This document shows, one piece after another, positions 5,346-27,641 of a stretch of DNA of 64,000 nucleotides. Source of the DNA: Halomonas sp. M20 (GTDB lineage: Bacteria; Pseudomonadota; Gammaproteobacteria; Pseudomonadales; Halomonadaceae); contig NZ_JACNMQ010000005.1 in the NCBI RefSeq assembly GCF_020622265.1, positions 62,001-126,000 of the forward strand, given 5' to 3'. A model generated the notes under the pieces. The model did no database searches, was not told where the DNA came from, and saw nothing but the letters and a program-made list of their open reading frames with translations. The first letter of the stretch is position 1; each line of letters begins with the position of its first letter. Both the position numbers and the translations under genes were made by a program.

Positions 5346-5366
5346 GCGCAAACCTCGCAGAATACA

Positions 5367-5389: not shown

Positions 5390-5420
5390 TATATCTTTAC
5401 ACCGATTAACCGGATGAATC

Positions 5421-5434: not shown

Positions 5435-5545
5435 TAACGGCCTGGTTGCCTGCTGTCAGGATTATTCCAGTAAAACTAGGCAAAAAGGTTAGATAAGCAA
5501 GAGGCTTCTTATGCTGTGAAGTTGTTTTCCTGATAAGAAGTAAAA

Positions 5546-5568
5546 CATATGCATTTTAAAAAACGGAA
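5546..5568. promoter_or_regulatory. Possible NsrR half-site in nirS leader
   Basis: The left half CATATGCATTT followed by TAAAA resembles the NsrR half-site, but the right half (ending ACGGAA) does not match. It is 110 bases before the nirS ATG. Weak; could be chance in AT-rich leader sequence. Confidence 0.3.
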
Positions 5569-5632
5569 GTAGTGTCCAACAGAGTGGTGTTGCTAGCTGG
5601 CTTGCTTCTGCAACGAATAACAACGCATGTGA

Positions 5633-7447
<1,815 letters not shown>

Positions 7448-7603
7448 GGAATCCCTGAATAAATGGCTGCACTGACGGAGCGCTACGTTGCGCGGTACTC
7501 AAAAGCTCGCCTAACGACCAGTTATGTCTCGCTTTTTGCGTTCCGTGCGCCTTGCGCTCCGCACAGTTCGCCGATTTCTACAGCGATTCGCAAATAAGAG
7601 GAA

Positions 7604-7623
7604 GACGGGCCGAAAGGCCCGTC
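7604..7623 (+). other. GC-rich hairpin between nirS and nirD
   Basis: Eight-base stem GACGGGCC / GGCCCGTC closed by a GAAA tetraloop, in the interval between nirS and nirD. It lacks a following T run, so it is not a classic intrinsic terminator. It could be a REP-like element, a stabiliser of the nirS message 3' end, or a processing site that separates abundant nirS mRNA from the biosynthesis genes. Confidence 0.6.
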
Positions 7624-7651
7624 CTACCAACATTAACAGTGAGCTGTGCCG

Positions 7652-8137
7652 ATGCCTCCACTTATCCACCAACTCGATACGCTGGATCGCCGCCTGATCG
7701 ATGGTTATCAGCGCGGCTTTCTTGTCTGCGAGCGCCCCTATGCCGTCATGGCCGACGACCTAGGCATGACCGAGAGCGAACTGCTCGTGCGTCTGGAGCG
7801 CTTGCAGACACTCGGCGTGCTGAGTCGGGTGGGGCCGGTCTTCGAGCATACCAAGGCCGGTGCCAGCCTGTTGGCGGCCGTCGCGGTGCCGAAGAACGAA
7901 CAAGAGGCATACGCAGAGCTCATCAATCGCGCTCCCGGGGTAAATCACAACTACGCCCGGGAGCATGATTACAATCTATGGTTCGTCATGACTGCCGCCG
8001 ACGAAGAACAGCTCGGTAGGCGGCTCGATCATCTGGAAGCCGAACTCGATCGACCGATTCTGCGTCTGCCGATGCTTGAGGGTTTTCATATCGACCTGAG
8101 TTTCCCCATTCCCTGGCAGGAGCTGGAAAGCGCATGA
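7652..8137 (+). CDS. nirD: NirD, siroheme decarboxylase subunit (heme d1 pathway)
   Basis: 161-residue Lrp/AsnC-fold protein. With NirL, NirG and NirH it decarboxylates siroheme to 12,18-didecarboxysiroheme during heme d1 synthesis in the cytoplasm. It shows the N-terminal helix-turn-helix-like half (LDRRLIDGYQRGFLVCERPY) and the C-terminal ferredoxin-like half with NHNYAREHDYNLWFVM, containing the conserved histidines. ATG at 7652 is spaced well from GTGAG; a GTG at 7646 is an alternative. First gene of the tight nirDLGHJEN run; its stop overlaps nirL by four bases. Confidence 0.9.
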   Translation: MPPLIHQLDTLDRRLIDGYQRGFLVCERPYAVMADDLGMTESELLVRLERLQTLGVLSRVGPVFEHTKAGASLLAAVAVPKNEQEAYAELINRAPGVNHNYAREHDYNLWFVMTAADEEQLGRRLDHLEAELDRPILRLPMLEGFHIDLSFPIPWQELESA

Positions 8138-8637
8138 ATCAGGTCGCTGAACTATACATGGACACCGAGGCCGAACAGCGCTTGCGAGCTCTGATCGAGA
8201 AAGGACTGCCCCTGACCTCTAGGCCCTGGCAGACTCTGGCCGATCAGTGCGACATGAGCGAAGCCCGCGTCATGGCCACGATCGAGCGCTGGCAGTCGGA
8301 AGGGTTGATCAAACGCCTGGGCCTGGTGATCAAGCATCGGCCTCTAGGCATCAAGGCGAACGCCATGGTGGTGTGGGACATCCCGGATGACCAGGTTGCG
8401 ATGGTGGGTCGTCGTCTTGCCGCAGAGCGTGCGGTAACACTGTGCTATCGCCGCCCACGCCGGTTGCCGGACTGGCCGTTCAACCTGTTCTGCATGATTC
8501 ACGGCATCGCTCGCCAGCGCGTATTGCTGGAACTCGATGCGCTCACCCAGCGCCAGGGCCTAGAGGCGATACCTCGCCAGGTGTTGTTCAGTACCCATGC
8601 CTATCGTCAACGGGGGGCGCGCTATGCCGCTGAGTGA
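8134..8637 (+). CDS. nirL: NirL, siroheme decarboxylase subunit
   Basis: 167-residue Lrp/AsnC-type member of the siroheme decarboxylase. It carries the HTH-like N-terminal half and the CYRRPRRLPDWPFNLFCMIHG segment, the motif that distinguishes the NirL/NirH partner from NirD/NirG (which have an NYxREHxxNxWFV motif). Pairs of these two types form the active heterodimer. Translation starts at the ATGA overlap with nirD. Because alternating pairs D/L and G/H are all present, the decarboxylase here is the four-gene form as in Pseudomonas aeruginosa. Confidence 0.9.
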   Translation: MNQVAELYMDTEAEQRLRALIEKGLPLTSRPWQTLADQCDMSEARVMATIERWQSEGLIKRLGLVIKHRPLGIKANAMVVWDIPDDQVAMVGRRLAAERAVTLCYRRPRRLPDWPFNLFCMIHGIARQRVLLELDALTQRQGLEAIPRQVLFSTHAYRQRGARYAAE

Positions 8638-9112
8638 CAAGTCCCGAGGGACTGGTGCCGCTGTCGAACTCGATGCGCTCGATCGTCGGATCCTCAATCG
8701 ATTGCAGGATGGCCTGCCGATCGTCGAAGCGCCTTTCGCGGTGGTGGCCCAGGAGCTCGAGATAGAAGAGCAGATGCTGCTCGAACGTCTGAATGACTTA
8801 CGTGAAAGTGGGGTGCTTAGCCGTTTCGGCCCCATGTATCACGCCGAGCGATTGGGTGGCGGGCTGACCCTGGCGGCCATGTCCATACCGGAAATCTATT
8901 TCAATGCCGTCGCCGAAGAGGTCAATGCCTTTGCCGAGGTCGCCCACAACTATCGTCGCGAGCATCGCCTCAACATGTGGTTCGTGCTGGCAACCGAGAC
9001 CCCGGAGCGCATCGGTGACGTAATCGCCGCGATCGAGGCTGCTACCGGCTACCCGGTCTACAACATGCCCAAGCAGGAGGAATTTCATGTCCGACTCCAC
9101 CTGCCGGTCTGA
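8624..9112 (+). CDS. nirG: NirG, siroheme decarboxylase subunit
   Basis: 162-residue Lrp/AsnC-fold protein of the NirD/NirG type, with AHNYRREHRLNMWFVL near residue 115 as diagnostic motif. It acts with the other three subunits in removing two acetate carboxyls from siroheme. I chose ATG 8624, which overlaps the end of nirL and has a GGGGGG purine stretch just ahead; an in-frame ATG at 8597 would add nine residues. It overlaps nirH at its 3' end, so the four genes are translationally coupled. Confidence 0.9.
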   Translation: MPLSDKSRGTGAAVELDALDRRILNRLQDGLPIVEAPFAVVAQELEIEEQMLLERLNDLRESGVLSRFGPMYHAERLGGGLTLAAMSIPEIYFNAVAEEVNAFAEVAHNYRREHRLNMWFVLATETPERIGDVIAAIEAATGYPVYNMPKQEEFHVRLHLPV

Positions 9113-9623
9113 GTCATCTAACGGCGCCGTGTTCGATGAGCAGGATCGCGCCATCGTTCTGGCGACCCAGTCCGGCTTGCCTCTGGTTTCCGATCCCTGG
9201 GGGGCGGTAGGCGCGCAAGTGGACATGAGTGCCGAGGAAGTCCGCCGGCGCATGCAGCGCATGCAGGAAACGGGTGTGATTAGACGCATCGCCGCGGTGC
9301 CCAACCACTATCGCCTGGGGTATGTAGCCAACGGCATGACCGTGTGGGATATCGAGGATGACGAGATCGATCGGATGGGCCGCGAAGTGGCGCGTCATCC
9401 GGGGGTTAGCCACTGCTACCGCCGCCCACGGCACCTGCCTGAATGGCCTTACAACCTGTTCGCCATGCTGCATGGTCGCAGCCGGGAAGAGGTCGAGCGT
9501 CAAGCCGATGAGCTTGCGGCGCTATTGGGCCATGCCTGCCGCGACCATCAAATTCTTTATAGTTCGCGTATTCTCAAGAAGACCGGACTGCGCCTGGCCG
9601 TGGACAGTCCAGGACGCACTTGA
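9087..9623 (+). CDS. nirH: NirH, siroheme decarboxylase subunit
   Basis: 178-residue Lrp/AsnC-fold protein of the NirL/NirH type, marked by HCYRRPRHLPEWPYNLFAML around residue 110. Start ATG 9087 lies inside the end of nirG and follows a strong AGGAGG. It completes the D-L-G-H set for siroheme decarboxylation and stops 18 bases before nirJ. NirL and NirH are similar to each other, as are NirD and NirG, consistent with duplication of a D/L pair. Confidence 0.9.
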   Translation: MSDSTCRSESSNGAVFDEQDRAIVLATQSGLPLVSDPWGAVGAQVDMSAEEVRRRMQRMQETGVIRRIAAVPNHYRLGYVANGMTVWDIEDDEIDRMGREVARHPGVSHCYRRPRHLPEWPYNLFAMLHGRSREEVERQADELAALLGHACRDHQILYSSRILKKTGLRLAVDSPGRT

Positions 9624-9641
9624 CCGAACAAGGAGATCGCC

Positions 9642-10853
9642 ATGTTTCGCGTCACTCGCTACATCAAGACCCTGCTGGAGCCGACGCCGCTAGCACTTGG
9701 AACCGGAGGGCCTGCTCGCAAACCGCCGGGGCCGGTGGTGATCTGGAATCTGATTCGTCGCTGCAACCTGACCTGCAAGCATTGCTATACGGTCTCGGCG
9801 GACATCGATTTCAAGGGCGAACTCTCCACGGATGAAGTCTTCACGGTGCTCGACAATCTCAAGACCTGTCGCGTGCCGGCGCTGATCCTTTCCGGTGGCG
9901 AGCCCTTGATGCGGCCGGATATCTTCGAGATTTCCCGGCGTGCCAAGGAGTTGGGGTTCTATACTGGCCTATCCACCAACGGCACCCTGATTACCGAAGA
10001 GAACATCGCCGAGATCGCCGCCGCGGGTTATGACTACGTCGGCATCAGCATCGATGGGCTGGAGGCAACCCACGACGTCTTTCGCCAGCGCCAGGGTGCT
10101 TTTCGCGAATCCATGCACGCGGTAGCCTTGTGCAAGGCTCATGGCATAAAGGTCGGACTGCGCACCACCCTGACCCAGCATAACTATGAGGAGCTTCCGC
10201 GCATCCTCGAATTGCTGGACGAACACGACGTGGACAAATTTTATCTGTCACACCTCAATTATGGCGGGCGCGGCCATCGTCATCGCAAGCAGGATGCCTG
10301 GTATCAAATGACCCGGGACGCCATGACGATGCTGTTCGATCACTGCCTGAGTGAACTCGAGCGTGGCATCGAGCGGGAATACGTCACCGGCAACAATGAC
10401 GCCGACGGCCCTTTTCTGCTGCAATGGGCGCAGAGCCGCTTTCCGGATCAGGTGGAAACGCTGCGCCAGCGTTTAGAGCAGTGGGGCGGCAACGCCTCCG
10501 GCGAGAACATTGCCAACATCGACAATCTCGGCGTGGTGCACCCGGACACCTTCTGGTGGGATCATTCCCTGGGCAATGTGCGCGACACGCCGTTCTCCAG
10601 GATCTGGCGCGACACTCAGGACCCGCTGATGCTGGGCATGCGCCAGCACCCGCGGCCGGTCAAGGGGCGCTGCGGTGAATGCCGCTATCTGGCGATCTGT
10701 AATGGCAACACCCGGGTGCGGGCCTGGAAAGTCAGCGGCGATCCTTGGGAAGAGGATCCAGGCTGTTACCTGACCAACGAGGAAATCGGCGTGCGCGGCG
10801 ACGCACGACGCGTGGATGCACCGGCCCACGTCATTCAAGCCGTCGAGCTTTGA
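9642..10853 (+). CDS. nirJ: NirJ, radical SAM heme d1 biosynthesis protein
   Basis: 403-residue radical S-adenosylmethionine enzyme. The CxxxCxxC cluster motif is CNLTCKHC at residues 41-48, followed by LILSGGEPL, and a C-terminal cysteine-rich SPASM-like region (GRCGECRYLAIC, later DPGCYL) for an auxiliary iron-sulfur cluster. NirJ replaces the two propionate side chains of didecarboxysiroheme with oxo groups on the way to heme d1. Start ATG has AAGGAGA in front. Cytoplasmic; oxygen sensitivity of the cluster suits anaerobic expression. Confidence 0.95.
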   Translation: MFRVTRYIKTLLEPTPLALGTGGPARKPPGPVVIWNLIRRCNLTCKHCYTVSADIDFKGELSTDEVFTVLDNLKTCRVPALILSGGEPLMRPDIFEISRRAKELGFYTGLSTNGTLITEENIAEIAAAGYDYVGISIDGLEATHDVFRQRQGAFRESMHAVALCKAHGIKVGLRTTLTQHNYEELPRILELLDEHDVDKFYLSHLNYGGRGHRHRKQDAWYQMTRDAMTMLFDHCLSELERGIEREYVTGNNDADGPFLLQWAQSRFPDQVETLRQRLEQWGGNASGENIANIDNLGVVHPDTFWWDHSLGNVRDTPFSRIWRDTQDPLMLGMRQHPRPVKGRCGECRYLAICNGNTRVRAWKVSGDPWEEDPGCYLTNEEIGVRGDARRVDAPAHVIQAVEL

Positions 10854-10889
10854 GATTCAAAAAAAGAATATGATCAGGGGAGAAAGACC

Positions 10890-11732
10890 ATGACCACGCA
10901 AACGCGACGCTTTTGCTATCACCTCACTGAAAGGCCGCTGGCCGAAGGTGAAGTCGCCATCGTCGGTGCAGGGCCGGGGGATCCGGGGCTTTTGACCCTG
11001 CGCGCCTTGTCGCTGCTGCAGCAAGCCGAGTGCCTGGTGTTCGATCGGCTGGTGTCCGAGGATATTCTGGCCATGGCCCCGGCGGATGCTGAAACCTACT
11101 ATGTGGGCAAGGCGTCGCGCTGTCATGCGCTTACCCAGGACGAGACCAACGCCCTGATGGTAGCGCTCGCAGGAAAGGGCAAGCGGGTAGTCCGTTTGAA
11201 AGGCGGCGACCCGTTCATCTTCGGGCGTGGCGGCGAAGAAGCAGAATATCTCATCAATCACGGCGTGACGTTTCGGGTGGTGCCGGGTATTACCTCGGCG
11301 TCAGGCTGCTCGACCTATGCCGGCTTTCCGCTGACCCATCGCGACTTCGCGCAAAGCGTGACCTTCGTCACCGGCCACTGCAAGGGCGACGATTGCCTGG
11401 CACTCAACTGGCAGGCCCTGGCCGCGGCGCATCAAACCGTAGTGTTCTACATGGGCCTGGCCAACGCCGCGCTGATCAGTCGTGAAATGCAGCGCCACGG
11501 CCTGCCTGGTAGCCATCCCGTCGCTATAGTGGAGCGGGGCACCACCGCCGAGCAGCGCCAGGTACTGACCACGCTTGAAGAACTCGTGGCGACCATCGAG
11601 CGGGAAGACTTCAAGCCGCCGGCACTGATCGTGGTGGGTGAAGTGGTGCGCCTCGCGGATACGTTGGCGGTGGTTCAGCCCCAGGCGGTGCATGCCGAAA
11701 CGCATGAGGTGCTGGGAGCCGTGGCATGGTAA
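10890..11732 (+). CDS. nirE: NirE, uroporphyrinogen-III C-methyltransferase
   Basis: 280-residue SUMT that adds methyl groups from S-adenosylmethionine to C2 and C7 of uroporphyrinogen III, giving precorrin-2 for the heme d1 branch. It shows the family motifs VGAGPGDPGLLTLRAL near residue 25, GGDPFIFGRGGEEAEYL near 105, and TFVTGHCKG near 160. There is no CysG dehydrogenase/chelatase domain. Placement between nirJ and nirN identifies it as the dedicated denitrification copy rather than cobA. The stop overlaps the nirN ATG by seven bases. Confidence 0.94.
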   Translation: MTTQTRRFCYHLTERPLAEGEVAIVGAGPGDPGLLTLRALSLLQQAECLVFDRLVSEDILAMAPADAETYYVGKASRCHALTQDETNALMVALAGKGKRVVRLKGGDPFIFGRGGEEAEYLINHGVTFRVVPGITSASGCSTYAGFPLTHRDFAQSVTFVTGHCKGDDCLALNWQALAAAHQTVVFYMGLANAALISREMQRHGLPGSHPVAIVERGTTAEQRQVLTTLEELVATIEREDFKPPALIVVGEVVRLADTLAVVQPQAVHAETHEVLGAVAW

Positions 11733-13288
11733 AGCGAGGTGTGATTCGCCTGCTCTCGTTGAGTGTGTTGCTGTTGTCCTGGCCAGCCCTGGCGGAGCAG
11801 GTCGATCCCGAAGCGCTCTACCAGACACATTGCGCCAGCTGTCATGGCATCGACCGGTTGGGGGGCATGGGGCCGGCACTGTTGCCGGGGAATCTATCGC
11901 GGCTCAAGCAGGACGAAGCCATCGAGGTGATTCGTGAAGGCCGCCCGGCCACCCAGATGATGGGCTTCGATGACGTGCTGGCCCCGGCTGAAAGCGAAGC
12001 CGTGGCGAAGTGGATCTATACGCCGCCGGAGGCGCCGCCGACCTGGACCATGGCGGATATCAAACAAAGCCACGCGGTCATGCATCCGTTCGGCAGCCTG
12101 CCGGAGGCGCCGACCTTCGATGCGGACCCGCTGAACCTGTTCCTGGTAGTGGAGACCGGCGATCATCATGTAAGCCTTCTCGACGGCGATACCTTCGAGC
12201 GCATCGATCGCTTTCCCAGCCGCTATGCCCTGCACGGGGGGCCCAAGTACACCCCGGACGGGCGCTATGTCTTCTTCGGCTCCCGGGACGGCTGGATCAG
12301 CAAGTACGATATCTACAACCAGAAGATGGTCGCGGAGGTACGTGCGGGCATCAACATGCGCAACATCGCGGTTTCCGGGGATGGTCGCTACGTGATGGCC
12401 GCCAATTACCTGCCCCATAGTCTGGTACTGTTCGACGCTCACAATCTGGCTCCGATGAAGATCTATCCGGCAAAAGGCGAGAACGGCGACACCTCCCGGG
12501 TAAGCGCCGTCTATGCCGCCCCGCCTCGCGGCAGCTTCATCGCCGCCCTGAAGGACATCAAAGAAGTCTGGGAGATCCCCTGGCCGGTACCGACCTCACC
12601 GGTGGTTTCCACAGGCCACATGAAGGAACCCATCGAAGCCCAGCGCAGCCATGACACTGCCAATTTCGATGTGCGTCGCATCACCGTGCCGGATTACCTG
12701 GACGATTTCTTCTTCGATCCCGAGTATCGCCACGTCATCGGCGCCGCTCGGGGCGGCAAGGGGGCCATGGTGGTCGACCTCGATAGCGGCAATAAGGTCG
12801 CCGACCTGCCCTTGGCCGGTATGCCGCATCTGGGCTCCGGCGTCAGCTGGATGCTGGACGGGCGGCGGGTGATGGCGATCCCGCATCTGACCAAGGGCGC
12901 GGTGTCGATCATCGACATGAGTGACTGGTCGCTGATCAAGACCCTCGAAACCCAGGGGCCGGGCTTTTTCATGCGCAGCCATGAAAACTCGCCCTATGCC
13001 TGGGTGGACGTGTTCTTCGGCCCCAATAGCGACAAGGTGCACGTGATCGACAAGAAGACGCTCGAGATCGTCAAGACACTCACGCCAGCGCCGGGCAAGG
13101 TCGCCGCTCACGTCGAGTTCGATCGCTACGGTGAAAAACTGCTGCTCAGCCTCTGGGACCGGGACGGTGCGGTGATCGTCTACGATGCCCAAACCTTGGA
13201 AGAGCTTCAGCGCATTCCCATGGACAAGCCCTCGGGCAAGTACAACGTCTGGAACAAGACGCGCTACGAAGAGGGGACGAGTCACTAG
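11726..13288 (+). CDS. nirN: NirN, dihydro-heme d1 dehydrogenase
   Basis: 520-residue periplasmic protein with a signal peptide (cleavage near ALAEQ), an N-terminal cytochrome c domain with CASCH at residues 36-40 and a C-terminal d1-type propeller resembling NirS. NirN makes the last heme d1 change, introducing the acrylate double bond of dihydro-heme d1, and hands the cofactor to NirS. Shorter than NirS at the N-terminus, as is normal. It ends the rightward nir run; a weak hairpin follows before the nnrS promoter. Confidence 0.94.
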   Translation: MVKRGVIRLLSLSVLLLSWPALAEQVDPEALYQTHCASCHGIDRLGGMGPALLPGNLSRLKQDEAIEVIREGRPATQMMGFDDVLAPAESEAVAKWIYTPPEAPPTWTMADIKQSHAVMHPFGSLPEAPTFDADPLNLFLVVETGDHHVSLLDGDTFERIDRFPSRYALHGGPKYTPDGRYVFFGSRDGWISKYDIYNQKMVAEVRAGINMRNIAVSGDGRYVMAANYLPHSLVLFDAHNLAPMKIYPAKGENGDTSRVSAVYAAPPRGSFIAALKDIKEVWEIPWPVPTSPVVSTGHMKEPIEAQRSHDTANFDVRRITVPDYLDDFFFDPEYRHVIGAARGGKGAMVVDLDSGNKVADLPLAGMPHLGSGVSWMLDGRRVMAIPHLTKGAVSIIDMSDWSLIKTLETQGPGFFMRSHENSPYAWVDVFFGPNSDKVHVIDKKTLEIVKTLTPAPGKVAAHVEFDRYGEKLLLSLWDRDGAVIVYDAQTLEELQRIPMDKPSGKYNVWNKTRYEEGTSH

Positions 13289-13363: not shown

Positions 13364-13386
13364 AAGATGTATTTAAAAAGCATTTT
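13364..13386. promoter_or_regulatory. NsrR-like operator in front of nnrS
   Basis: Half-sites AAGATGTATTT and AAAAGCATTTT around one central A, 23 bp, ending 23 bases before the nnrS ATG. Among the best matches in the window to the NsrR pattern. nnrS is a documented NsrR target in several proteobacteria, which supports the reading. Confidence 0.75.
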
Positions 13387-13409: not shown

Positions 13410-14630
13410 ATGAACGAACGAAGCCTCACACGGCCCGCTCAACTGACCCGCCTCATGCCAGTATGGCGGTTGGCGTTTCGCCCGCTGTTTTTGCTAGGCG
13501 CTTCGTTCAGCCTGCTGGCCATGCTTGTGTGGGGCGGCTTCTGGCATGGCGCGATACTACTCGAGCCCGTGGGCGGCATGATCTGGTGGCATCAGCACGA
13601 GATGTTGTTCGGTTTCGTGATGGCCATCGTTGCTGGCTTTCTGCTCACCGCAGTACAAAACTGGACCGGCCAGCCAAGTATCAAGGGGTGGCCGCTACTG
13701 GGTCTGGTCGCGTTATGGCTGGCGGGGCGCCTGTTGCTGGCTTTCCCGAAAGCGCTGGGAGATCTCGATACACTGGTGATCGCCCTGGTCGATCTGGCGT
13801 TTCTGCCGGTGGTGGCCGCAATCATGGCGCGGCTGGTGATGCGCGTGAAGCAGTGGCGCAATCTGATCTTTCTGCCGGTGTTGACATTGCTGTTCGTGGC
13901 CAACGCATTGATGCATGCCGGCGTATTGCGCGGCGATGGCGAACTGGTGCGTCAGGGGGCTTATTTGGCGGTGCTTTTGATCGCGCAGCTGATAGTCATC
14001 CTCGGCGGGCGGGTCATTCCATTCTTCACCTCCCTGCGCCTGAAGCGCCAGAAGCCCCAGCCGATCCCGGCGCTTGAAAAACTGGCCATCGGCAGTGTCG
14101 CGGCGTTGGTCGTGACTCTGCTGCTGGCAGTAGTGGGGCTTGCTCTGCCGGCGATCGTGACTGCCGTCATCGCCTTGCTGGCTGGCGCGGCCAATCTTTG
14201 GCGTCTGGCGCGCTGGGAAGGGTGGCGCGCCTTGCATGAGCCATTGCTATGGGGGCTTCATGTCAGCTACGGTTTTATCGCGCTAGGACTCTTGATGCTC
14301 GGTCTGGCTTATCTGAACCTGCTGCCCGCTACCCTGGGGATTCATGCCCTGACCGTAGGCGGCATGAGCACCATGATTCTGGCGATGATCTCCCGGGTGT
14401 CCCTGGGTCATACCGGACGGCCCATCGAAACGCTACCCGGCATCGGCCTGGCCCTGGGTTTGATGCTCGCCGCCGCACTCTTTCGTGCCTTGATCCCAGC
14501 CATCTGGCCTCAGGTCACCCACTGGATGCTGAGTTTGAGTATCTTGCTGTGGTGCCTCGCTTACGCGGTTTTCCTGATGCTTTATACCAAGCCTCTGCTT
14601 AGCGCCCGGGTGGATGGCAAGGATGGGTAG
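13410..14630 (+). CDS. nnrS: NnrS family heme-copper membrane protein
   Basis: 406-residue integral membrane protein with about twelve hydrophobic segments and conserved histidines such as WWHQHEMLFGFV near residue 60 and HALTVGGMSTMILAMISRVSLGHTGR near 310-335. NnrS proteins bind heme and copper and protect cells from nitric oxide and nitrosative stress, apparently by lowering iron-dinitrosyl damage; their chemistry is not settled. Start ATG 13410 follows a GAGAA purine run. An NsrR-like operator directly precedes it. It lies between the nir operon and trhP as its own unit. Confidence 0.92.
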   Translation: MNERSLTRPAQLTRLMPVWRLAFRPLFLLGASFSLLAMLVWGGFWHGAILLEPVGGMIWWHQHEMLFGFVMAIVAGFLLTAVQNWTGQPSIKGWPLLGLVALWLAGRLLLAFPKALGDLDTLVIALVDLAFLPVVAAIMARLVMRVKQWRNLIFLPVLTLLFVANALMHAGVLRGDGELVRQGAYLAVLLIAQLIVILGGRVIPFFTSLRLKRQKPQPIPALEKLAIGSVAALVVTLLLAVVGLALPAIVTAVIALLAGAANLWRLARWEGWRALHEPLLWGLHVSYGFIALGLLMLGLAYLNLLPATLGIHALTVGGMSTMILAMISRVSLGHTGRPIETLPGIGLALGLMLAAALFRALIPAIWPQVTHWMLSLSILLWCLAYAVFLMLYTKPLLSARVDGKDG

Positions 14631-14672: not shown

Positions 14673-15989
14673 ATGAATACTACCACTGAGCAAACATCGC
14701 CCTTCGCCGCGCCTGAGCTTCTCTCCCCGGCAGGCAACTACCGTAACATGCGCTACGCCTTCGCCTATGGCGCCGATGCGGTCTACGCCGGCCAGCCGCG
14801 TTATTCGCTGCGGGTACGCAACAACGATTTCGATCTCGCCAATCTGCGGCTCGGCATCGAGGAGGCCCATGCCCAGGGCAAGGCTTTTTATGTCGCCTCG
14901 AACATCGCGCCCCACAACGCCAAGCTCAAGACCTACCTGCGCGACATGGAACCGGTCATCGAGGCCGGCCCCGATGCGCTGATCATGTCCGACCCGGGGC
15001 TAATCATGATGGTGCGCGAGCGCTGGCCGGAGCAGACGATTCATCTTTCAGTGCAGTCCAACGTGGTCAATCACGCCGCGGCGCGTTTCTGGCAAGGGCA
15101 GGGCATCCGCCGCATCATCCTGTCTCGGGAACTCTCTCTGGAAGAGATCGGCGAGATCCGCCGCGAATGCCCGGACCTGGAGATCGAGACCTTCGTGCAC
15201 GGCGCGCTGTGCATTGCCTACTCCGGGCGTTGCCTGCTGTCCGGCTATTTCAACCGTCGCGACCCTAATCAAGGCACCTGCACCAACGCCTGTCGCTGGA
15301 AATACAACACCATCGCGGCGGAGTCTGATGCGACCGGCGATCTCAAGCCCGCTCAGGCGGCGCTGATCGAGGACGTGACGCGCCCCGGCGAGCTGATGCC
15401 CATCGACGAGGATGAGCACGGCACCTACATCATGAACTCCAAGGATCTGCGCGCCGTGCAGCATGTACAAAGGCTGACCGAGATGGGGGTGAGTTCGTTG
15501 AAGATCGAAGGGCGCACCAAGTCGCACTATTACGTGGCGCGCACCGCCCAGGTCTACCGCCGCGCCATCGACGACGCCCAGGCAGGGCGGCCCTTCGACA
15601 TGAGCCTGATGGACGAGCTCGAGAATCTGGCTAACCGTGGCTACACGGAAGGCTTCTATCGCCGCCATGTGCACGACGAATACCAGAACTACGAGCGCGG
15701 CCACTCCATCGGCGTGCATCAGCAGTTCGTTGGCGAGGTGGTCGATTACGACGCGGCGCGTGGCTGGCTGGAAATCGACGTCAAGAACCGCTTCGCCTTG
15801 GGCGACTTCCTGGAGCTGATGCTGCCCGGTGGCAATCGCCGGTTTATCCTCGAGGCGCTGGAGAACAAGCGCGGCGAGGGGGTCGACACCGCTCCGGGGT
15901 CTGGGCATGTAGTGCGCCTGCCCATTCCCGGCGAGGCCATCGAATCCGAGCGGGCCAAGTTCGGGCTTCTGCTGCGAGACCTTCGCTAG
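14673..15989 (+). CDS. trhP: U32 family tRNA hydroxylation protein TrhP (YegQ)
   Basis: 438-residue member of the peptidase U32 family. It opens with PELLSPAGNYRNMRYAFAYGADAVY and carries the signature ETFVHGALCIAYSGRCLLS near residue 180 followed by CTNACRW, which supply cysteines for an iron-sulfur cluster. E. coli YegQ/TrhP makes 5-hydroxyuridine at the tRNA wobble position, upstream of CmoB; cmoB and cmoA are also in this window (41-42 kb). The ATG at 14673 lacks a strong ribosome site. It sits in the NO neighbourhood without a recognisable NsrR box of its own and may ride on nnrS transcription (43-base gap). Confidence 0.88.
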   Translation: MNTTTEQTSPFAAPELLSPAGNYRNMRYAFAYGADAVYAGQPRYSLRVRNNDFDLANLRLGIEEAHAQGKAFYVASNIAPHNAKLKTYLRDMEPVIEAGPDALIMSDPGLIMMVRERWPEQTIHLSVQSNVVNHAAARFWQGQGIRRIILSRELSLEEIGEIRRECPDLEIETFVHGALCIAYSGRCLLSGYFNRRDPNQGTCTNACRWKYNTIAAESDATGDLKPAQAALIEDVTRPGELMPIDEDEHGTYIMNSKDLRAVQHVQRLTEMGVSSLKIEGRTKSHYYVARTAQVYRRAIDDAQAGRPFDMSLMDELENLANRGYTEGFYRRHVHDEYQNYERGHSIGVHQQFVGEVVDYDAARGWLEIDVKNRFALGDFLELMLPGGNRRFILEALENKRGEGVDTAPGSGHVVRLPIPGEAIESERAKFGLLLRDLR

Positions 15990-16051
15990 ATCACTACCGG
16001 CATGCGACAACCTGTCGGATGGACGAAGCGGAGGGTGCGTCAGGTAGTATA

Positions 16052-16074
16052 AAGATATATATAAAAAGCATCAT
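16052..16074. promoter_or_regulatory. NsrR-like operator in front of the P450 gene
   Basis: Half-sites AAGATATATAT and AAAAGCATCAT around one central A. It ends 52 bases before the P450 ATG and shares its right half almost exactly with the hmp operator at 27592-27614. The left half is degenerate (ATATAT in place of GCATTT). Function inferred. Confidence 0.6.
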
Positions 16075-16126
16075 TTAATCGCCTGACAGCAAAAGTTGCT
16101 CACGCTGCCCAGTAAAGGAGAAGATC

Positions 16127-17287
16127 ATGGAGGATAAATCACCGGCTGATTGGGACCCCAGGGCTCAGGAGGTTCTCGACGATCAGATCAAGGCCTACGA
16201 TGGGATGCGTAAGCGTTGTCCCGTTGCCTATAGCGACTATCTCCAGTGGTCGCTTTTCCGCCATGAAGATGTGATGCGGGCACTTACGGATCACGACACC
16301 TTCAGCAATGCCGCCTCGCGCCATCTTTCCGTGCCTAATGCCATGGACCCGCCGGAGCACACGCCTTACCGGCACATCGTCGAAAAGTATTTCACGGCAG
16401 AACACGTCCGTGAGTTCGAGCCGATGTGCCGGGCCAATACGGCGTCGCTATTCGATGACTTGCCTCAAGATAGTGACGTGGAGGTGATGAACGCGCTCGG
16501 CCAGCCCTTCGCCGTGCGCAATCAATGCGCCTTCATGGGCTGGCCCGACAGCCTGCGCGAGCCGCTGCGCCGATGGATCGGCAAGAACCATCAGGCCACG
16601 CGGGCCGGGGATCGTCACGCCATGGCCAAGATTGCCCTGGAGTTCGACGGCTATATCAGCGAACAACTCATCGCTCGCCGGGAGGCAGGGGAAGCGGCTC
16701 CAGCGGATGCCACGACTCGGCTACTGCAGGAAAAGATAGAAGGTCGGTGGCTGAGCGATGAGGAGATCGTCAGCATCATCCGCAACTGGACCGTGGGTGA
16801 ATTGGGGACTATCGCCGCGAGCGTCGGCATCCTGACTCACTACCTGGCGAAACATTCCGAATTGCAGGAGGCACTTCGCCAGGGGCGTGAAAATCTCCCC
16901 GACGCCATTGACGAGATACTGCGCATTCATGCGCCGCTGATTTCCAATCGTCGCGTGACTACTCAGCCGGTGACGATCGGCGATCGCGAGGTCCCCGCCG
17001 GCGAACGAATTTCCCTGATCTGGGCCTCCGCCAACCGAGATGAAGACGTCTTCGGCGATCCGGATGAATTTCAGCCCCAGCGCAACCGCGACAATAACCT
17101 GCTGTATGGCGCCGGTTTGCATGTCTGCCCCGGCGAGCCTCTGGCCAGGCTGGAGCTGGAGGTGTTTATGGAAACATTGCTGGCGAAAACCCGACATATC
17201 GAAATGGCACCCGATGCGACACCGGAGCGCGCGCAGTTCCCGGCCAGCGGCTTCGCCTCGTTGCCTGTCATGATTCAGCGTGATTGA
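16127..17287 (+). CDS. Cytochrome P450 with non-standard I-helix (candidate NO-linked P450)
   Basis: 386-residue soluble bacterial P450. The heme-thiolate loop is LLYGAGLHVCPGEPLARLEL with Cys334 (the usual Phe is Tyr327); the K-helix ExxR is E263-R266; a C-helix segment DPPEHTPYRH is at 74-83. The I-helix reads GELGTI at 224-229: Thr228 is kept but the neighbouring acid used for proton delivery in oxygen-activating P450s is Gly227. Loss of this acid is also known from fungal NO-reducing P450nor (CYP55). ATG 16127 has AAAGGAGA. An NsrR-like box precedes it and an FmdE-domain gene follows 37 bases later. No ferredoxin or reductase partner adjoins. Family is certain; substrate and NO role are inference. 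Confidence 0.9.
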   Translation: MEDKSPADWDPRAQEVLDDQIKAYDGMRKRCPVAYSDYLQWSLFRHEDVMRALTDHDTFSNAASRHLSVPNAMDPPEHTPYRHIVEKYFTAEHVREFEPMCRANTASLFDDLPQDSDVEVMNALGQPFAVRNQCAFMGWPDSLREPLRRWIGKNHQATRAGDRHAMAKIALEFDGYISEQLIARREAGEAAPADATTRLLQEKIEGRWLSDEEIVSIIRNWTVGELGTIAASVGILTHYLAKHSELQEALRQGRENLPDAIDEILRIHAPLISNRRVTTQPVTIGDREVPAGERISLIWASANRDEDVFGDPDEFQPQRNRDNNLLYGAGLHVCPGEPLARLELEVFMETLLAKTRHIEMAPDATPERAQFPASGFASLPVMIQRD

Positions 17288-17324
17288 GAGTGCCCATGAA
17301 AGCGAATGTTATCAGGAGGTTGCC

Positions 17325-17966
17325 ATGACATTTCCTGACTTCTTCGAGGATGTGCCCGTTATTCGCTTGCGCGACCCGCTAGCCCAACTGCTAGGTAGCG
17401 CGACAGAGGGGATCATGGAGTACCGTTATGCGGATGCCGTGCGTCTGACGGGCCATTCCTGCCCGACCGTGGCGGGCGCCTTCCTGACTGCTCGGGCCGC
17501 ACTGAATTCGCTCTATCCGGACACACTGCCCGAACGGGGCAGTATCACCGTGCGCATGCCGTCACTGGAAGATGAAGGCACGACCGGTGTGGTCGCCCAG
17601 GTGCTGGCGCTACTCACCGGTGCCGCGGCTCAGGGTGGCTTCAAGGGCATCGGCGACCGGTTCGCGCGCAACGGACTGCTCAGTTTTGCCAAGCGGAGCG
17701 GTGAGAATAACGGCGCGGTACGCTTCGAACGACTCGACACCGGCGCTTCCGTAGCAGTGGTGGTCGATGCTGGCAAGGTGCCCGCCGACACCTCCCAACG
17801 CGAACGCCTGCAAGCCATTCTGCAGAATCGAGAAACCCCCAAACAACAGATCGAGTTCGCGCGTCTCTGGCAGGAGCGTGTACGCCGAATGCTGCTGGAA
17901 CATGCCGATGACACGACGATGATTCGGGTCGTTACGTTGAATGACACGATCTCCCGAGATGGATAG
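17325..17966 (+). CDS. FmdE-domain protein, function unknown
   Basis: 213-residue protein. The segment YADAVRLTGHSCPTVAGAFL (residues 35-54) is the FmdE-type GHxCP motif seen in formylmethanofuran dehydrogenase subunit E relatives, where His and Cys may bind metal. It lacks the C-terminal zinc finger found in some FmdE proteins and has no signal peptide. ATG 17325 follows a perfect AGGAGG, so an earlier GTG at 17280 overlapping the P450 gene is unlikely. It is 37 bases behind the P450 gene and almost certainly co-transcribed, placing it under the same NsrR-like box. Methanofuran chemistry is not expected here; the real role is unknown. Confidence 0.75.
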   Translation: MTFPDFFEDVPVIRLRDPLAQLLGSATEGIMEYRYADAVRLTGHSCPTVAGAFLTARAALNSLYPDTLPERGSITVRMPSLEDEGTTGVVAQVLALLTGAAAQGGFKGIGDRFARNGLLSFAKRSGENNGAVRFERLDTGASVAVVVDAGKVPADTSQRERLQAILQNRETPKQQIEFARLWQERVRRMLLEHADDTTMIRVVTLNDTISRDG

Positions 17967-20756: not shown

Positions 20757-20989
20757 GGCCTGTCCTCACTCTCATCTTTCAGGATGCGTCGCTTGATATG
20801 TCGCTCCTGCCGCTCGCCGGGTTTTAGAAAGCACTTGATGCAGTAGATCGTGACCAGCAGCACGATGAGTCCACCGCCAACCACCAGTAGCTTGTCCTCC
20901 AGGCCGACCCGATCGACGAACTCGGCGGCTTGGGCCTGCTGTGTTGCTAGACCGGCTATCATCGGCATGGCGAGAAGTGCACCGCGCAT
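20753..20989 (-). CDS. Small membrane protein of the cbb3-like oxidase operon
   Basis: 78 residues: a signal-like start MRGALLAMPMIAGLATQQAQ, a membrane helix LVVGGGLIVLLVTIYCIKCF, then a charged tail (GERQERHIKRRILKDESEDR). The start is set by the ATGA overlap with the upstream cytochrome gene; the stop overlaps the next gene the same way. Size and position recall CcoQ-like small subunits of cbb3 oxidases, but sequence similarity is not evident. Longer frames starting upstream run through the cytochrome gene and are not real. Confidence 0.65.
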   Translation of the reverse strand: MRGALLAMPMIAGLATQQAQAAEFVDRVGLEDKLLVVGGGLIVLLVTIYCIKCFLKPGERQERHIKRRILKDESEDRP

Positions 20990-21999
20990 CACTTTCCTCC
21001 TGCCTCGCGCCGACCCGCGACATCCTCCGCCGTCACGGTGGGTGCGTCGTTGCCCCAGCTGGTGCGCTCGTGATTGATGATGGCGGCAACCTGATCGTCG
21101 TCGAGCTGATCGGCGAAGCCGGGCATAGGCGAGGCGTATTCGGTGCCGTCGATGGTCCTGCCCTGGGCACCGTGCAGGATGGTGTCGATATGCTCGCTGG
21201 GGTCCTCCGCCAGCACCACCGCATTCCCCGCCAGGGGCGGGAAGGTGCCCGGCAGGCCCTGGCCGTTGGCCTGGTGGCAGCTGGCGCAATTATTGGCGTA
21301 AAGCGTCGCGCCCTTTGCGGAGGCATCGTCACCGGGACCGCTCTTTGTCGAGCCCCCTGCTTGGCTATTCTTGGTTGTCGACGCCTTGGCCATGCTGCCG
21401 GCGCCTTCGATGGGTATCTGGCGCAGGGCAAGCAGATAGGCCACCAGCGCCTGACCCTGGGGCGTAGGCACGACCTTGCCGCCCTTGGGCGCATAGGCTT
21501 CGGGAACGGTCATCACCGGCGCGTCGCCTTCAACGCCGGTGGCCGGCTCGAAGAGCCAAGGGTAGGCCGGCATGATCGAATCCTTGACCACCGAACGAGG
21601 ATTGTAGAGGTGCAGGTATTGCCAGGTTTCACTGGACTGCCGAGCGCCAACATTGGAAAGATCCGGACCGGTGCGCGCGCTGCCCAGCACCGCCGGCGAG
21701 TAGGGACGCCAGATATCCATGGGGCCGAGCAGCGCATAGTCTGCCGCCGCGGCGGGTCGACCCCAGGGGCTATCCATGGGCAGGGGGCGTACCTGCTGGG
21801 TATGGCAGGCCACGCAGCCTTCGGCGATATACACCTCGAGCCCTCGCTGCTCTAAATCCGATAAAGGTTTCGCCTGAGGCAGCGGCGCGGTATTGCTCTG
21901 CATCCATTGGGCCGGAAGGATGGCGATGATGAAGGCAAGGCCGATGAAGCCGAAGAAGATCGTGCCCAGTAGCAGCCAGTGGTTGCGATGAAAGTTCAT
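20989..21999 (-). CDS. Fused CcoO/diheme-type cytochrome c subunit of a cbb3-like oxidase
   Basis: 336-residue membrane-anchored diheme protein. An N-terminal helix (residues 8-30) is followed by a CcoO-like domain with CVACH at 62-66 and RTGPDLSNVG near 110-118, whose methionine partner is in the DSIMPAYPWLF stretch near 140-150. After a Ser/Gly-rich linker (205-228) a second cytochrome c domain carries CASCH at 238-242 and a late SPMPGF. In ordinary cbb3 oxidases these functions are split between CcoO and CcoP; here they are on one chain. It overlaps the catalytic subunit gene by four bases. It should feed electrons from periplasmic donors to the catalytic subunit. Confidence 0.85.
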   Translation of the reverse strand: MNFHRNHWLLLGTIFFGFIGLAFIIAILPAQWMQSNTAPLPQAKPLSDLEQRGLEVYIAEGCVACHTQQVRPLPMDSPWGRPAAAADYALLGPMDIWRPYSPAVLGSARTGPDLSNVGARQSSETWQYLHLYNPRSVVKDSIMPAYPWLFEPATGVEGDAPVMTVPEAYAPKGGKVVPTPQGQALVAYLLALRQIPIEGAGSMAKASTTKNSQAGGSTKSGPGDDASAKGATLYANNCASCHQANGQGLPGTFPPLAGNAVVLAEDPSEHIDTILHGAQGRTIDGTEYASPMPGFADQLDDDQVAAIINHERTSWGNDAPTVTAEDVAGRREAGGK

Positions 22000-23450
22000 G
22001 CCATCGCCTCCTGGGCCTCCAGGGGCCGACGCCGCTCATGAGGGGAGGGGCGCATGCACCAGAGGTTATAGGCGAAGATCAGGTGCGACAGGAACATCAG
22101 GCCACCGCCCAGGGCTCGCCACAGCCAGAAGGGCGCCATCATCGTAACGGAGTCGATGAAGGCGTCGCCGGCTATCCAGCTCATGCCCTGCATCGTCCCC
22201 CCGACCATCAGGGCGATGGTGTAGATGGCGACTCCGACGAAGGCGAACCAGAAGTGCACGCCGGCCAGGAAATGGGACGGCTCGCGCCCCGTCAGGCGTG
22301 GCACGAGACCGTAGATGCCGCCCCAGATCAGGAAGACGACAAAGCCGTACATGGTCAGGTGGGAATGCGCGATGGTGAAGTTGGTGAAATGCCAGACCCG
22401 GTTCAGGGAGCGAAATGCCTCGAAGGTGCCCTGCAGCGAGAACAGGAAGTAGGCGATCACCCCGACCAGGATGAAGGGCAGGCTGTAGCTGCGCGCTACG
22501 GTACGGAAGCTGCCCTTCATGGTCATCAGGAAGTTGCCGGTACCCGCGGCGAGGGTGACGATCATGCCCACGCTGAAGATGATCGCCACGGTCTGCAGCC
22601 ACCAAGGGGTCGGCGCGAAGATAAAGTGATGGGCGCCGATCATGCTGTAGAAGACCATCTGGGTCCAGAAAGCCAGCACGCCCAGGGAATAGGAGTAGAT
22701 CGGCTTGTTGAGCAATTTGGGCAGGAAATAGTAGGTCAACCCCAACACCATGGGCGTGAACCACATGCCCACACCCATATGCATGTAGAAGCCCTGGATT
22801 ACCGTTTCGCTGATCCCGGTTTGCTGATAGAAGGGCACGTAGGCGATCACCATCAGCGCTACCGTCCACAGAAAGCCGCCCATGATGTACCAGTTGGAGA
22901 TGTAGATCTCCTCGATGGCGCGGCCGACGATGGTGCGGATCATGTTGTAGGTCACCAATATCACGCCCAAGGCAAAGACGCCCTGCACCGGCCAGATGTA
23001 CTCGCGATACTCCTGGCCGCCGTTGTTGACGCCGGACATCAACAGCAGGTCGCCCACCAGCACGGCGGCGTTGATCAGGCCCAGGCTGACCCAGGCCAGG
23101 GGAAGACTGTGCAGCGGTCGGCGGCTGGTCTTGGGCACTACATAGAGCGCCAAGGCAATCATCGCCAGGGATGCCCAGCCCCAGAAGACGGTGTTGGTGT
23201 GGACCGGACGCAGGCGGCCATAGGAGAGCCAGGGGATATGGTCGATGTCTGGAGTGGCGAACTTGAGACCCAGGTAGGCGCCGACCAGGGTTCCTACCAG
23301 CAGCCAGAAGGTTGCGCTACCGAGATAGGCATAGATGAGCCGGGTCGCGGCCGTGTCCCGATCTGGAGCGACTTCGACGGCCGCCTTGGCGACCACCGCG
23401 GAACGACTTGCTGGTAATAAGGATGCCGGATTTACCACCTGACACCTCAC
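21996..23450 (-). CDS. cbb3-type (C-family) heme-copper oxidase catalytic subunit
   Basis: 484-residue protein with about twelve helices. Ligands line up with CcoN: low-spin heme His84 (LRPVHTNTVF), CuB ligands His224 and His274-His275 (YSMIGAHH), heme ligands in WHFTNFTIAHSHLT (His362, His364). Tyr268, six residues before the HH pair, equals the cross-linked tyrosine of cbb3 oxidases, and the Glu typical of NorB is absent, so oxygen reduction is favoured over NO reduction. The start is GTG at 23450, or a GTG four codons in. First gene of a four-gene leftward operon; an NsrR-like box begins 13 bases ahead. No ccoGHIS assembly genes are nearby. Confidence 0.85.
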   Translation of the reverse strand: MRCQVVNPASLLPASRSAVVAKAAVEVAPDRDTAATRLIYAYLGSATFWLLVGTLVGAYLGLKFATPDIDHIPWLSYGRLRPVHTNTVFWGWASLAMIALALYVVPKTSRRPLHSLPLAWVSLGLINAAVLVGDLLLMSGVNNGGQEYREYIWPVQGVFALGVILVTYNMIRTIVGRAIEEIYISNWYIMGGFLWTVALMVIAYVPFYQQTGISETVIQGFYMHMGVGMWFTPMVLGLTYYFLPKLLNKPIYSYSLGVLAFWTQMVFYSMIGAHHFIFAPTPWWLQTVAIIFSVGMIVTLAAGTGNFLMTMKGSFRTVARSYSLPFILVGVIAYFLFSLQGTFEAFRSLNRVWHFTNFTIAHSHLTMYGFVVFLIWGGIYGLVPRLTGREPSHFLAGVHFWFAFVGVAIYTIALMVGGTMQGMSWIAGDAFIDSVTMMAPFWLWRALGGGLMFLSHLIFAYNLWCMRPSPHERRRPLEAQEAMA

Positions 23451-23462: not shown

Positions 23463-23485
23463 AAGAAGTTTTTAAAATGCCTCTT
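23463..23485. promoter_or_regulatory. NsrR-like operator in front of the cbb3-like operon
   Basis: Half-sites AAGAAGTTTTT and AAATGCCTCTT around one central A. It is only 13 bases from the GTG start of the oxidase gene, so the message leader would be short or the site would lie within the transcribed start region, which suits a repressor. Function inferred. Confidence 0.6.
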
Positions 23486-23564: not shown

Positions 23565-23933
23565 TCAATCCTCCTTCCAGTAATCATTGGCCGCGGCCAC
23601 GGTCTGGAAGTGGGTGGCGATTACCTGCGAGACGGCGATCAGGCTGTCCGGATCATGCGCATAGGCACCGCGTAATGCCTTGCGCACGCTGGTATCGGGC
23701 TGAGTGGTGCCTACACCCTTCTGGGAAAGCGTTACCGCCAGCGCAAAGCCTTCCTGAGGTGTCTCGGTGATCAGGCTCGGCAGCCAGGAGTCGCTGCTCT
23801 TGCTCTGCTTCATTTCCTCTTCGGCCAGCGCCGAGCTCCCCAGGCCCAGGCTGAGAAACATTGCCATTAGAACAGCCGATGGCATCTTGGCTGTTTTCAT
23901 CGTAGATAGAACAGGGGGCGCTAGTCGGGTCAT
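23565..23933 (-). CDS. Small secreted protein of unknown function
   Basis: 122 residues. A signal peptide (MPSAVLMAMFLSLGLGSSALA, cut before EEEMK) leaves an approximately 80-residue periplasmic domain with no cysteine, no heme motif and no family I recognise; it contains TPQEGFALAVTLSQKGVG and ends AAANDYWKED. The ATG read from 23933 follows GAGGAG; a GTG at 23942 is an alternative. It is a single-gene unit 114 bases upstream of the cbb3-like operon, same strand, with its own NsrR-like box just ahead. The shared operator type suggests a role under nitric-oxide stress, but this is only association. Confidence 0.7.
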   Translation of the reverse strand: MTRLAPPVLSTMKTAKMPSAVLMAMFLSLGLGSSALAEEEMKQSKSSDSWLPSLITETPQEGFALAVTLSQKGVGTTQPDTSVRKALRGAYAHDPDSLIAVSQVIATHFQTVAAANDYWKED

Positions 23934-23951
23934 GGATCTCACTCCTCTTTT

Positions 23952-23974
23952 ATAAAGTATTTTTTATGCATGTT
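23952..23974. promoter_or_regulatory. Possible NsrR-like operator in front of the unknown secreted protein
   Basis: Right half TATGCATGTT is identical to that of the nirC operator; the left half ATAAAGTATTT is weaker. It ends 18 bases upstream of the ATG of the 122-residue protein gene. Weaker than the nnrS, hemerythrin and hmp sites. Confidence 0.5.
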
Positions 23975-25921: not shown

Positions 25922-26523
25922 TCAAGAAGCCTGGCAAAGCGGGCAATAGGTCGCGCGTTCCTCCTCGCTTAACCACAGACCGGTATGGTTGGCGCTGATG
26001 CGCTCACGCAGTGCTTGAAACTCTCTATCTTCTTTCGTGTCCGTCAAAGGGACCTCGCCGCTGCTTAGTTCCTGCCAGTCGTCAATAGTCAGCCATTGCG
26101 CGAGCTGCGGAAAGATTCGGGTTTCCTCACAGCGCAGGTGAGCGTGATAGAGCTCGCTATAGGCCTGGGCCAGATTCAAGGTATTCAAATCGAGCTCTGG
26201 GTCGATATTCCCCTCGGAGATGGCGCGGAAGGTTTCGTAAAGCTCTCTTCCGTAGATGGCCATACGCCGGTGCTGCTCATGGAGAATGGCCAAGCTGGCC
26301 TCATTATCCGGATGCGTTCGGCCAAGCGCTCGAACAACCGATCTTCGAAGGGATGATGAAGTCGATCCGGATGGTGGCTCATGTAGTGAAAGATATCGCG
26401 TAGCAGTGCGAAATCGGGGGTATCGCCACATTGGGCACCGTGCAACTGGCGCTCGGCAATGCAAAGTAGCCCATCGTAGTGGTGATGATCGTCGTGCAAG
26501 CGCTTCAGGATAGCAGTGGACAT
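25922..26523 (-). pseudogene. Hemerythrin-domain protein gene with a frameshift
   Basis: Two overlapping leftward frames make one protein of about 200 residues. The first, from ATG 26523 (GGGAGG ahead), reads MSTAILKRLHDDHHHYDGLL and later HYMSHHPDRLHHPFEDRLFERLAER; the second carries PDNEASLAILHEQHRRM and AHLRCEETRIFPQLAQWL and ends at 25922. The conserved His and Glu residues (HDDHHH, HHPFEDRLF, HEQH, HLRCEE) are those of a di-iron hemerythrin helix bundle. The frames meet near 26311-26319, where one missing base would join them as AER-HPDNE. Hemerythrin proteins of this kind (YtfE/DnrN group and relatives) are NO-induced. Either a recent inactivation or a base-call error. Confidence 0.8.
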
Positions 26524-26663: not shown

Positions 26664-26686
26664 AAGATGTATTTACAATGAATCTT
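26664..26686. promoter_or_regulatory. NsrR-like operator in front of the hemerythrin gene
   Basis: Half-sites AAGATGTATTT and CAATGAATCTT around one central A; the best palindrome in the window. It is 140 bases upstream of the leftward hemerythrin ATG. It also lies just past the end of the leftward sdhB gene, so it can only serve the hemerythrin gene in that direction. Confidence 0.75.
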
Positions 26687-27591: not shown

Positions 27592-27614
27592 AAGAAGCAT
27601 ATAAAAAGCATCAT
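27592..27614. promoter_or_regulatory. NsrR-like operator in front of hmp
   Basis: Half-sites AAGAAGCATAT and AAAAGCATCAT around one central A, ending 27 bases before the hmp ATG. hmp is the archetypal NsrR-repressed gene. The site is 140 bases upstream of the divergent sdhB, so an effect on sdhB is possible. Confidence 0.75.
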
Positions 27615-27641
27615 TAAATGCAAGTAACCCTGAGGATTCTC

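Follow-up and report, generated by a model that had tools for sequence, protein, structure and literature searches.

What does a cytochrome P450 without the usual acid of its I-helix do among bacterial denitrification genes? The question is raised by two neighbouring genes in a stretch of 64,000 nucleotides from Halomonas sp. M20 (contig NZ_JACNMQ010000005.1, positions 62,001 to 126,000 of the forward strand), the whole of which we call the window. A P450 gene (16127–17287, + strand, 386 residues) is followed there by a gene for an FmdE-like protein (17325–17966, + strand, start codon ATG at 17325, 213 residues, GHSCPT motif), the latter beginning 37 bases past the P450 stop, as had been noted in a reading made from the sequence alone (the sequence-only reading). 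That reading had proposed a bacterial P450 system linked to nitric oxide (NO), with the FmdE protein as its partner. We found that the P450 represents a distinct bacterial family, which is linked to the genes of nitrate/NO respiration and is probably an accessory among them.

The reading frame of the P450 gene is intact, and the product matched the Pfam P450 model with an E-value of 6.9e-25. The haem ligand is Cys334, the ExxR motif is formed by E263 and R266, and the acid position of the I-helix is occupied by Gly227, within the signature RNWTVGELGTI; all three assignments of the sequence-only reading proved correct. In a gap-free alignment, Gly227 was found opposite the Glu of TamI and opposite Ala242 of the fungal NO reductase P450nor, which thus lacks the same acid, as had been claimed, and Thr228 was retained. 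The predicted structure has the P450 fold (pLDDT confidence score 87) and matched P450eryF and P450cam at Z ~42; the fold, the haem-thiolate Cys loop and the ExxR motif together place the protein in the P450 superfamily. It is the single P450 match in the 3.9 Mb genome, and its closest named relatives come from uncultured Halomonas.

It is clear that the missing acid is a family trait. All 31 aligned members have Gly at the acid position, with Arg-Asn-Trp ahead of it and Thr or Ser directly after it, and Asn220, which corresponds to a pocket-lining position in P450cam, is likewise invariant (31/31); two members, L121 and L137, are one residue shorter directly ahead of the acid position. Mean column identity in alignment A1 was 73%. 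In the tree, the 31 family rows formed one clade (100/100) apart from CYP55A1, TamI, EryK and five other bacterial P450s, although CYP55A1 has a long branch and an odd composition; L135, whose match is in two pieces, and the partial L122 were omitted. We know of no named family with the RNW...Gly motif. Similarly, P450 terms applied to the open-licence PMC literature gave no recognisable description of the family; subscription papers and P450 name lists lay outside this search, and a CYP number may exist. In PMC6710368, PMC4847356 and PMC6593283 the term cytochrome P450 stands just in a reference or in a sentence on another subject, and PMC1274295 does not contain it.

The link of the family to nitrogen-oxide metabolism was visible at the level of whole genomes. 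We scored the P450 in 201 Halomonadaceae genomes as a full-length match of at least 57% identity, which gave 30 genomes, fragments in G039, G154, G187, G100, G053, G001 and G041 being scored as absent. A cNorB match was present in 28 of the 30 genomes with the P450 and in 29 of the 171 without it (Fisher test, 3e-16), and cytochrome d1 in 25/30 and 20/171, respectively; these counts are uncorrected for shared ancestry. The NorB query was L038, named by reading, Pfam giving just the superfamily COX1. Both P450-bearing genomes without cNorB had NarG and a qNor-like match, qNor having been looked for among P450-bearing genomes only. The genes were also close to each other: of the 28 genomes that have P450 and cNorB together, 25 have the P450 no more than 20 kb from a gene for cytochrome d1 or norB, and 19 have it within 2.3 kb. 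Markers of nitrogen-oxide metabolism were found at 42 of 60 family loci and at none of seven loci in a small control of P450s outside the family, taken from other taxa. The 60-locus count omitted L032, L033, L069, L073 and L095 and included the same places twice in three cases (L050/L090, L056/L094 and L061/L093); without L138, where the sole marker is a 29% match, it becomes 41/60. NarG scored over the cut-off in 12 of 13 P450 genomes, mostly picked for having no cNor or for lying outside Halomonadaceae, versus 3 of 14 control genomes.

The arrangements around the gene differed widely. In the window the P450 follows nirN-nnrS-trhP, while in many Halomonas it adjoins nirF/nirC, often together with hmp, a Yip1-domain gene and a MarR gene. 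The genes norCB adjoin it in L038, L091 and L092, and NosZ and norCB share its locus in L056. On plasmids of Paraburkholderia and Caballeronia narGHJI and a nitrate transporter lie just 5' of it, and genes for hemerythrin and an Rrf2 regulator are near; in G335 (L087) it stands between UbiT and UbiUV, which serve the anaerobic synthesis of ubiquinone, with NarL close, and at other family loci beside NnrS or NsrR-hemerythrin genes. Eight of the nine P450 plasmid records were opened, three of which had no gene table. Gene names that did not come from models or records were given by reading, and neighbouring genes were picked by composition, and these calls are rough; clustering of neighbouring open reading frames had been swamped by the spurious frames of GC-rich DNA.

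Promoter boxes were examined as well. The sequence-only reading had placed an NsrR-like box 52 bases upstream of the P450 gene; the box is present (putative operator at 16054–16072, + strand, two mismatches to gATGyAT-N5-ATrCATc, the NsrR consensus in the available text of PMC1274295), but it lies 54 bases before the ATG. In L032, the locus of the nearest relative (P450 89% identical), a box with one mismatch stands at an equal distance. No NsrR-like box was seen in the P450 promoters of L033 or L097, and it was not enriched over the family, with 2 of 52 promoters at up to two mismatches versus 26 of 2240 random stretches; the 52 upstream stretches were those left after identical or short ones had been dropped. 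NsrR-like boxes in the window as a whole were not above chance either (12 versus 7.6, sd 2.8; 7 of 100 shuffles reach 12), but eight of these boxes fall into intergenic gaps 5' of nirC/nirS, nnrS, the P450 gene, the CcoN-like gene and the genes for a hexameric tyrosine-coordinated haem protein (HTHP), a hemerythrin-like protein and hmp.

A DNR/FNR-type box was found in 29 of the 52 P450 promoters, versus 103 of 765 promoters of other genes at the same loci (Fisher test, 1e-11) and 36 of 5200 shuffled promoters, and 18 of the 29 boxes were positioned 73–80 bases before the start. Such a box was defined, from the generally known DNR consensus, as a site within one mismatch of TTGAY-N4-RTCAA, which had been widened after a stricter form was scored; the stricter TTGAT-N4-ATCAA occurred in 7/52 P450 promoters and 23/2240 random stretches. 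The window P450 promoter is not among the 29. Because of these boxes, we infer control by NsrR- or DNR-type regulators, which appears to act through an NsrR-type box in the close lineage of the window and through a DNR/FNR-type box in many relatives. Genome co-occurrence, distance, neighbourhoods and promoter boxes thus agree on the link of a bacterial P450 to NO and denitrification that the sequence-only reading had put forward.

Kinship with P450nor, which that reading had brought in for comparison, was not borne out. The two proteins share the P450 fold, a link to denitrification and a small residue in place of the acid, with the next Thr retained (Gly-Thr in the window P450, Ala242-Thr243 in CYP55A1). 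Members of one CYP family have more than 40% identity, whereas CYP55A1 and the window P450 are 25.5% identical over 365 residues, and CYP55A1 fell outside the family clade in the tree of the P450 with CYP55 and bacterial P450s that had been suggested as a check. The stretch of P450nor with Arg64 and Ser75 is missing from the window P450, and Asp88, Ser286, Arg392 and Asp393 are replaced by Ala, Pro, Pro and Ala. Arg64, Asp88, Ser286 and Asp393 are residues of the nucleotide site and the proton path; of the CYP55 residue features, the small residue and the Thr are found. The idea of a bacterial CYP55 was abandoned, as identity, tree and residues all argue against it; CYP55 was also absent from the 50 structure-match rows for the predicted P450, which in itself proves nothing. 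Because the P450nor residues for NAD(P)H use are lost, direct use of NAD(P)H is disfavoured.

The best solved relatives of the single sequence were the actinobacterial TamI and EryK (CYP113A1), at 30–32% identity, while the family profile gave its top score, 191 bits, to CYP125MRCA. EryK also lacks the acid and has Leu-Pro there, whereas TamI keeps Glu-Thr, and neither has Arg-Asn-Trp ahead of the motif. The same I-helix in a well-characterised hydroxylase family, which the sequence-only reading had named as refuting its proposal, was thus not seen among the nearest solved hydroxylases. The nitrating P450s TxtE and RufO use NO according to the literature, but the window P450 reached 62 bits with the TxtE model (TIGR04458), far under its cut-off of 500, and falls outside that family.

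Because of the genomic setting and the missing O2-activation residue, we tentatively favour the reading that the P450 is an NO-regulated accessory haem-thiolate enzyme handling NO. As a soluble enzyme it would bind NO at the haem and would remove or use it when NO rises, a task for which the O2-activating acid would not be needed. Electrons would probably come from a protein donor, be it a ferredoxin or an iron-sulphur protein such as the SdhB-like one, whereas P450nor receives hydride directly, and the FmdE-like protein would be a separate nitrogen-oxide-linked protein encoded 3' of the P450 rather than an obligate subunit. According to a computational study, the haem-thiolate centre may by itself suffice for the steps of P450nor that form nitrous oxide (N2O), as far as the available text of PMC10743073 goes. 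A bolder proposal seems unlikely to us: that denitrifying bacteria have an NO reductase or NO oxidant of the P450 type, with an origin independent of fungal CYP55, which would work under anoxia with a protein donor such as the SdhB-like one and, alongside cNor and qNor, would help to form N2O or to detoxify NO.

Several observations weigh against the handling of NO. The missing acid had been taken as a sign of NO chemistry, an argument that is weakened: EryK, the erythromycin C-12 hydroxylase, lacks it too, and the same Gly is carried by one cyanobacterial and two Deinococcus members whose annotated neighbours include no denitrification genes, so the motif is not tied to denitrification; the Deinococcus ficus member does have a nitrite/sulfite reductase nearby. 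The P450nor residues are not conserved, and the window pattern at Arg64, Asp88, Ser286 and Asp393 recurs in 17/17 A1 rows, except that L066 has Leu for Asp393. No markers were found at 18 of the 60 loci, among them those of Halioglobus (L034), Thauera (L040, L041 and L042) and G013 (L097). Only 6 of 13 P450 genomes of other lineages, a set that includes one Halomonas, L073, had cNorB at E 1e-40; in the partly different set of 13 used for NarG, a NorB-type match at E 1e-10 was present in 8 and absent from 5. Some of these genomes are incomplete metagenome bins. In the Thauera family, NorB-type genes occurred in 9 of 10 genomes with the P450 and in 93 of 140 without it, a difference that is not significant (p 0.17) because 102 of the 150 genomes own such a gene. 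In addition, none of the counts takes shared ancestry into account, many of the box-bearing promoters come from one Halomonas group, and relics of the P450 gene indicate that it can be lost.

An alternative is a P450 of the ordinary kind, dependent on O2 or peroxide and unusual just in its I-helix, that would oxidise an organic metabolite (a quinone, lipid, signal or xenobiotic) and would merely be co-induced with denitrification at low oxygen. In its favour, EryK hydroxylates without the acid, the residue next to the Gly is Thr or Ser throughout, the fold is that of P450eryF and P450cam, distant members lie away from denitrification genes, and the P450 of G335 stands between ubiquinone synthesis genes. 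We nevertheless regard this explanation as somewhat unlikely, given the DNR-type boxes and a gene that recurs, each time differently arranged, alongside nar, nir, nor and nos genes; a recurrent biosynthetic or catabolic partner was not noticed in the loci read, with no dedicated search. A haem-thiolate sensor or sink for NO that does not turn over would suit an I-helix off the catalytic norm and promoter boxes like those of NO-response genes, but the invariant Asn220 and the high column identity in A1 suggest a defined ligand or substrate, which makes this explanation improbable. More improbable still is an enzyme of the TxtE/RufO type that would nitrate or nitrosate with NO to give a nitro or N-oxide product: nitration of the TxtE type needs O2, the TxtE score is far too low, and a biosynthetic cluster was not noticed in the loci read, again with no dedicated search. 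For it speaks that the locus also encodes a nitrite reductase that forms NO, and that P450-catalysed nitration with NO is known (PMC9500659, available text).

P450-type NO reduction by CYP55 has been described in fungi and algae (PMC12548093 and PMC7412212, in their available text), and the isotopic site preference of N2O has been compared between fungal P450nor and bacterial cNOR (PMC12548093). With a P450 in the bacterial nitrate/NO gene set, bacterial P450-type NO chemistry becomes a directly testable question. If the P450 makes N2O, the site preference would tell fungal from bacterial sources less easily; should its activity prove to be another, the P450 would still be a haem enzyme of denitrification loci.

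As a possible electron donor we considered the product of a stand-alone SdhB-like iron-sulphur protein gene (26745–27452, − strand). The sequence-only reading had described the locus as being without any redox partner gene, but this conceivable partner is encoded 9.5 kb 3' of the P450, and SdhB-like genes also adjoin the P450 at other loci. The window protein is a second copy, the other SdhB of the genome being 66% identical. A second SdhB-like protein, at least 73% identical to that of the window, was found in 19 of the 30 P450 genomes and 14 of the 171 others (Fisher test, 1e-10), G128 being counted from a partial match at a contig end; among genomes with cNorB, the numbers were 17/28 with the P450 and 9/29 without it (p 0.03). 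An SdhB-like match lay within 10 kb of the P450 at 26 of 55 loci, three of which are repeats, and within 150 bases at five, although in L038, L043 and L086 the matches reach 56–58%, no more than housekeeping SdhB does, and may represent that gene. That the SdhB-like protein gives electrons to the P450 is our guess. In Halomonadaceae the stand-alone paralogue is linked to denitrification as well as to the P450, and a gene like it also adjoins the P450 in G335 (L087), which belongs to another family of the order.

The FmdE-like protein scored 18.8 bits with the Pfam model FmdE (PF02663), under the curated cut-off of 22.9. Its relatives are annotated as FmdE family proteins and the best Foldseek match of its model was Ta1109 (2gvi; probability 0.99, E 0.03), but the model is modest (pLDDT 65) and too uncertain for a mechanistic reading, and no formylmethanofuran dehydrogenase gene was noticed nearby. 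The survey of P450 and FmdE pairs that the sequence-only reading had suggested did find pairs, too few for a firm count. The two genes adjoin in the window and in G013, L129 has P450, hemerythrin and FmdE genes on one strand, an FmdE relic adjoins the P450 in L125, and the distance is 5.7 and 7.5 kb in L035 and L037. In Halomonadaceae, however, the FmdE-like protein was found in 6 of the 201 genomes, with the P450 in the window genome and G013, as a remnant in G083, and with no P450 match in G065, G076 and G094; of the 30 P450 genomes, two had it intact and one as a remnant, the other 27 having none at E 1e-10.

FmdE genes were also found in other nitrogen-oxide settings. Three Azospirillum plasmid records have nirK, FmdE and hemerythrin genes in a row (L140 6791–9196, L142 6789–9220 and L147 4378–6783), a gene order that suggests that FmdE-like proteins take part in the metabolism of NO or nitrite. 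On a Paracoccus plasmid FmdE follows an Rrf2 regulator, with NnrS near, and in Sulfuricurvum it follows nap and moaA genes; at these nirK and nap loci there is no P450 among the annotated neighbours. Of 33 FmdE plasmid records, 8 were opened: five had nitrogen-oxide genes near and three were haloarchaeal, with FmdE relatives adjoining a P-type ATPase. We conclude that FmdE has a link to nitrogen oxides of its own and accompanies the P450 in some cases. The proposed partnership thus keeps its recurrence beside the P450 in other lineages, but most Halomonadaceae genomes with the P450 are without FmdE and FmdE occurs in loci with no P450 annotated nearby, so FmdE as a general partner of the P450 was dropped, and a dedicated functional partnership seems improbable.

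Relatives of the P450 were present at 49 loci of the species-genome collection, most of them close and from Halomonadaceae and Betaproteobacteria, some being other P450s or fragments. Whole-genome searches and plasmid records of beta- and alphaproteobacteria, a cyanobacterium and Deinococcus added further members. Few genomes have the P450: at E 1e-60 it was present in 5 of 398 from the phylum, and in the family of Thauera terpenica it was found in 10 of 150 genomes. In the tree, the window P450 grouped with G013 and Halioglobus beside betaproteobacterial members and not with the other Halomonadaceae present, a grouping that points to horizontal transfer. Broken P450 remnants were seen in Halomonadaceae, including Chromohalobacter (L098, L099, L112, L079 and L080), near SdhB-like, NnrS or nir genes, and it seems that the gene was lost repeatedly in this family.

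That the pair lies within a denitrification/NO locus, as had been stated, was confirmed by models for nirS, nirF, nirN, nirJ, hmp and NnrS. The nirS and haem d1 genes extend over 3782–13288, with nirF and nirC on the − strand and nirS, nirD/L/G/H, nirJ, nirE and nirN on the + strand; nirF, nirS and nirN were named by the cytochrome d1 model, nirJ by NCBIfam and nirE as a uroporphyrinogen-III methyltransferase, while nirC and nirD/L/G/H were named by reading. They are followed by NnrS (13410–14630, + strand, Pfam), with an NsrR-like box at 13366–13384, and immediately 5' of the P450 by a TrhP-type U32 tRNA hydroxylase (14673–15989, + strand; 740 bits, cut-off 534). Further downstream are a hemerythrin-like protein under the Pfam cut-off (25922–26464, − strand; NsrR-like box with one mismatch at 26666–26684) and the NO-inducible flavohaemoprotein Hmp (27618–28823, + strand; NCBIfam 454 bits, cut-off 432; NsrR-like box at 27594–27612).

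Some smaller observations were made in the window and at related loci. The HTHP gene (23565–23942, − strand) lies within the NO locus and is flanked by NsrR-like boxes with three mismatches each (23465–23483 and 23954–23972), and an HTHP-like gene was read near the P450 in L087 too. A CcoN-like subunit and a CcoO-cytochrome c fusion, far under the cbb3 family cut-offs, adjoin the NO genes at 20989–23450, and related haem-copper genes were read near the P450 in L037 and L043. A Yip1-domain membrane protein, with a MarR regulator nearby, is encoded 5' of the P450 in many Halomonas loci (L049 9229–9792). Finally, a TetR regulator and RND efflux components were found near the P450 in unrelated lineages, in L086 on the reverse strand and in L035 at 14931–16774 (by reading).

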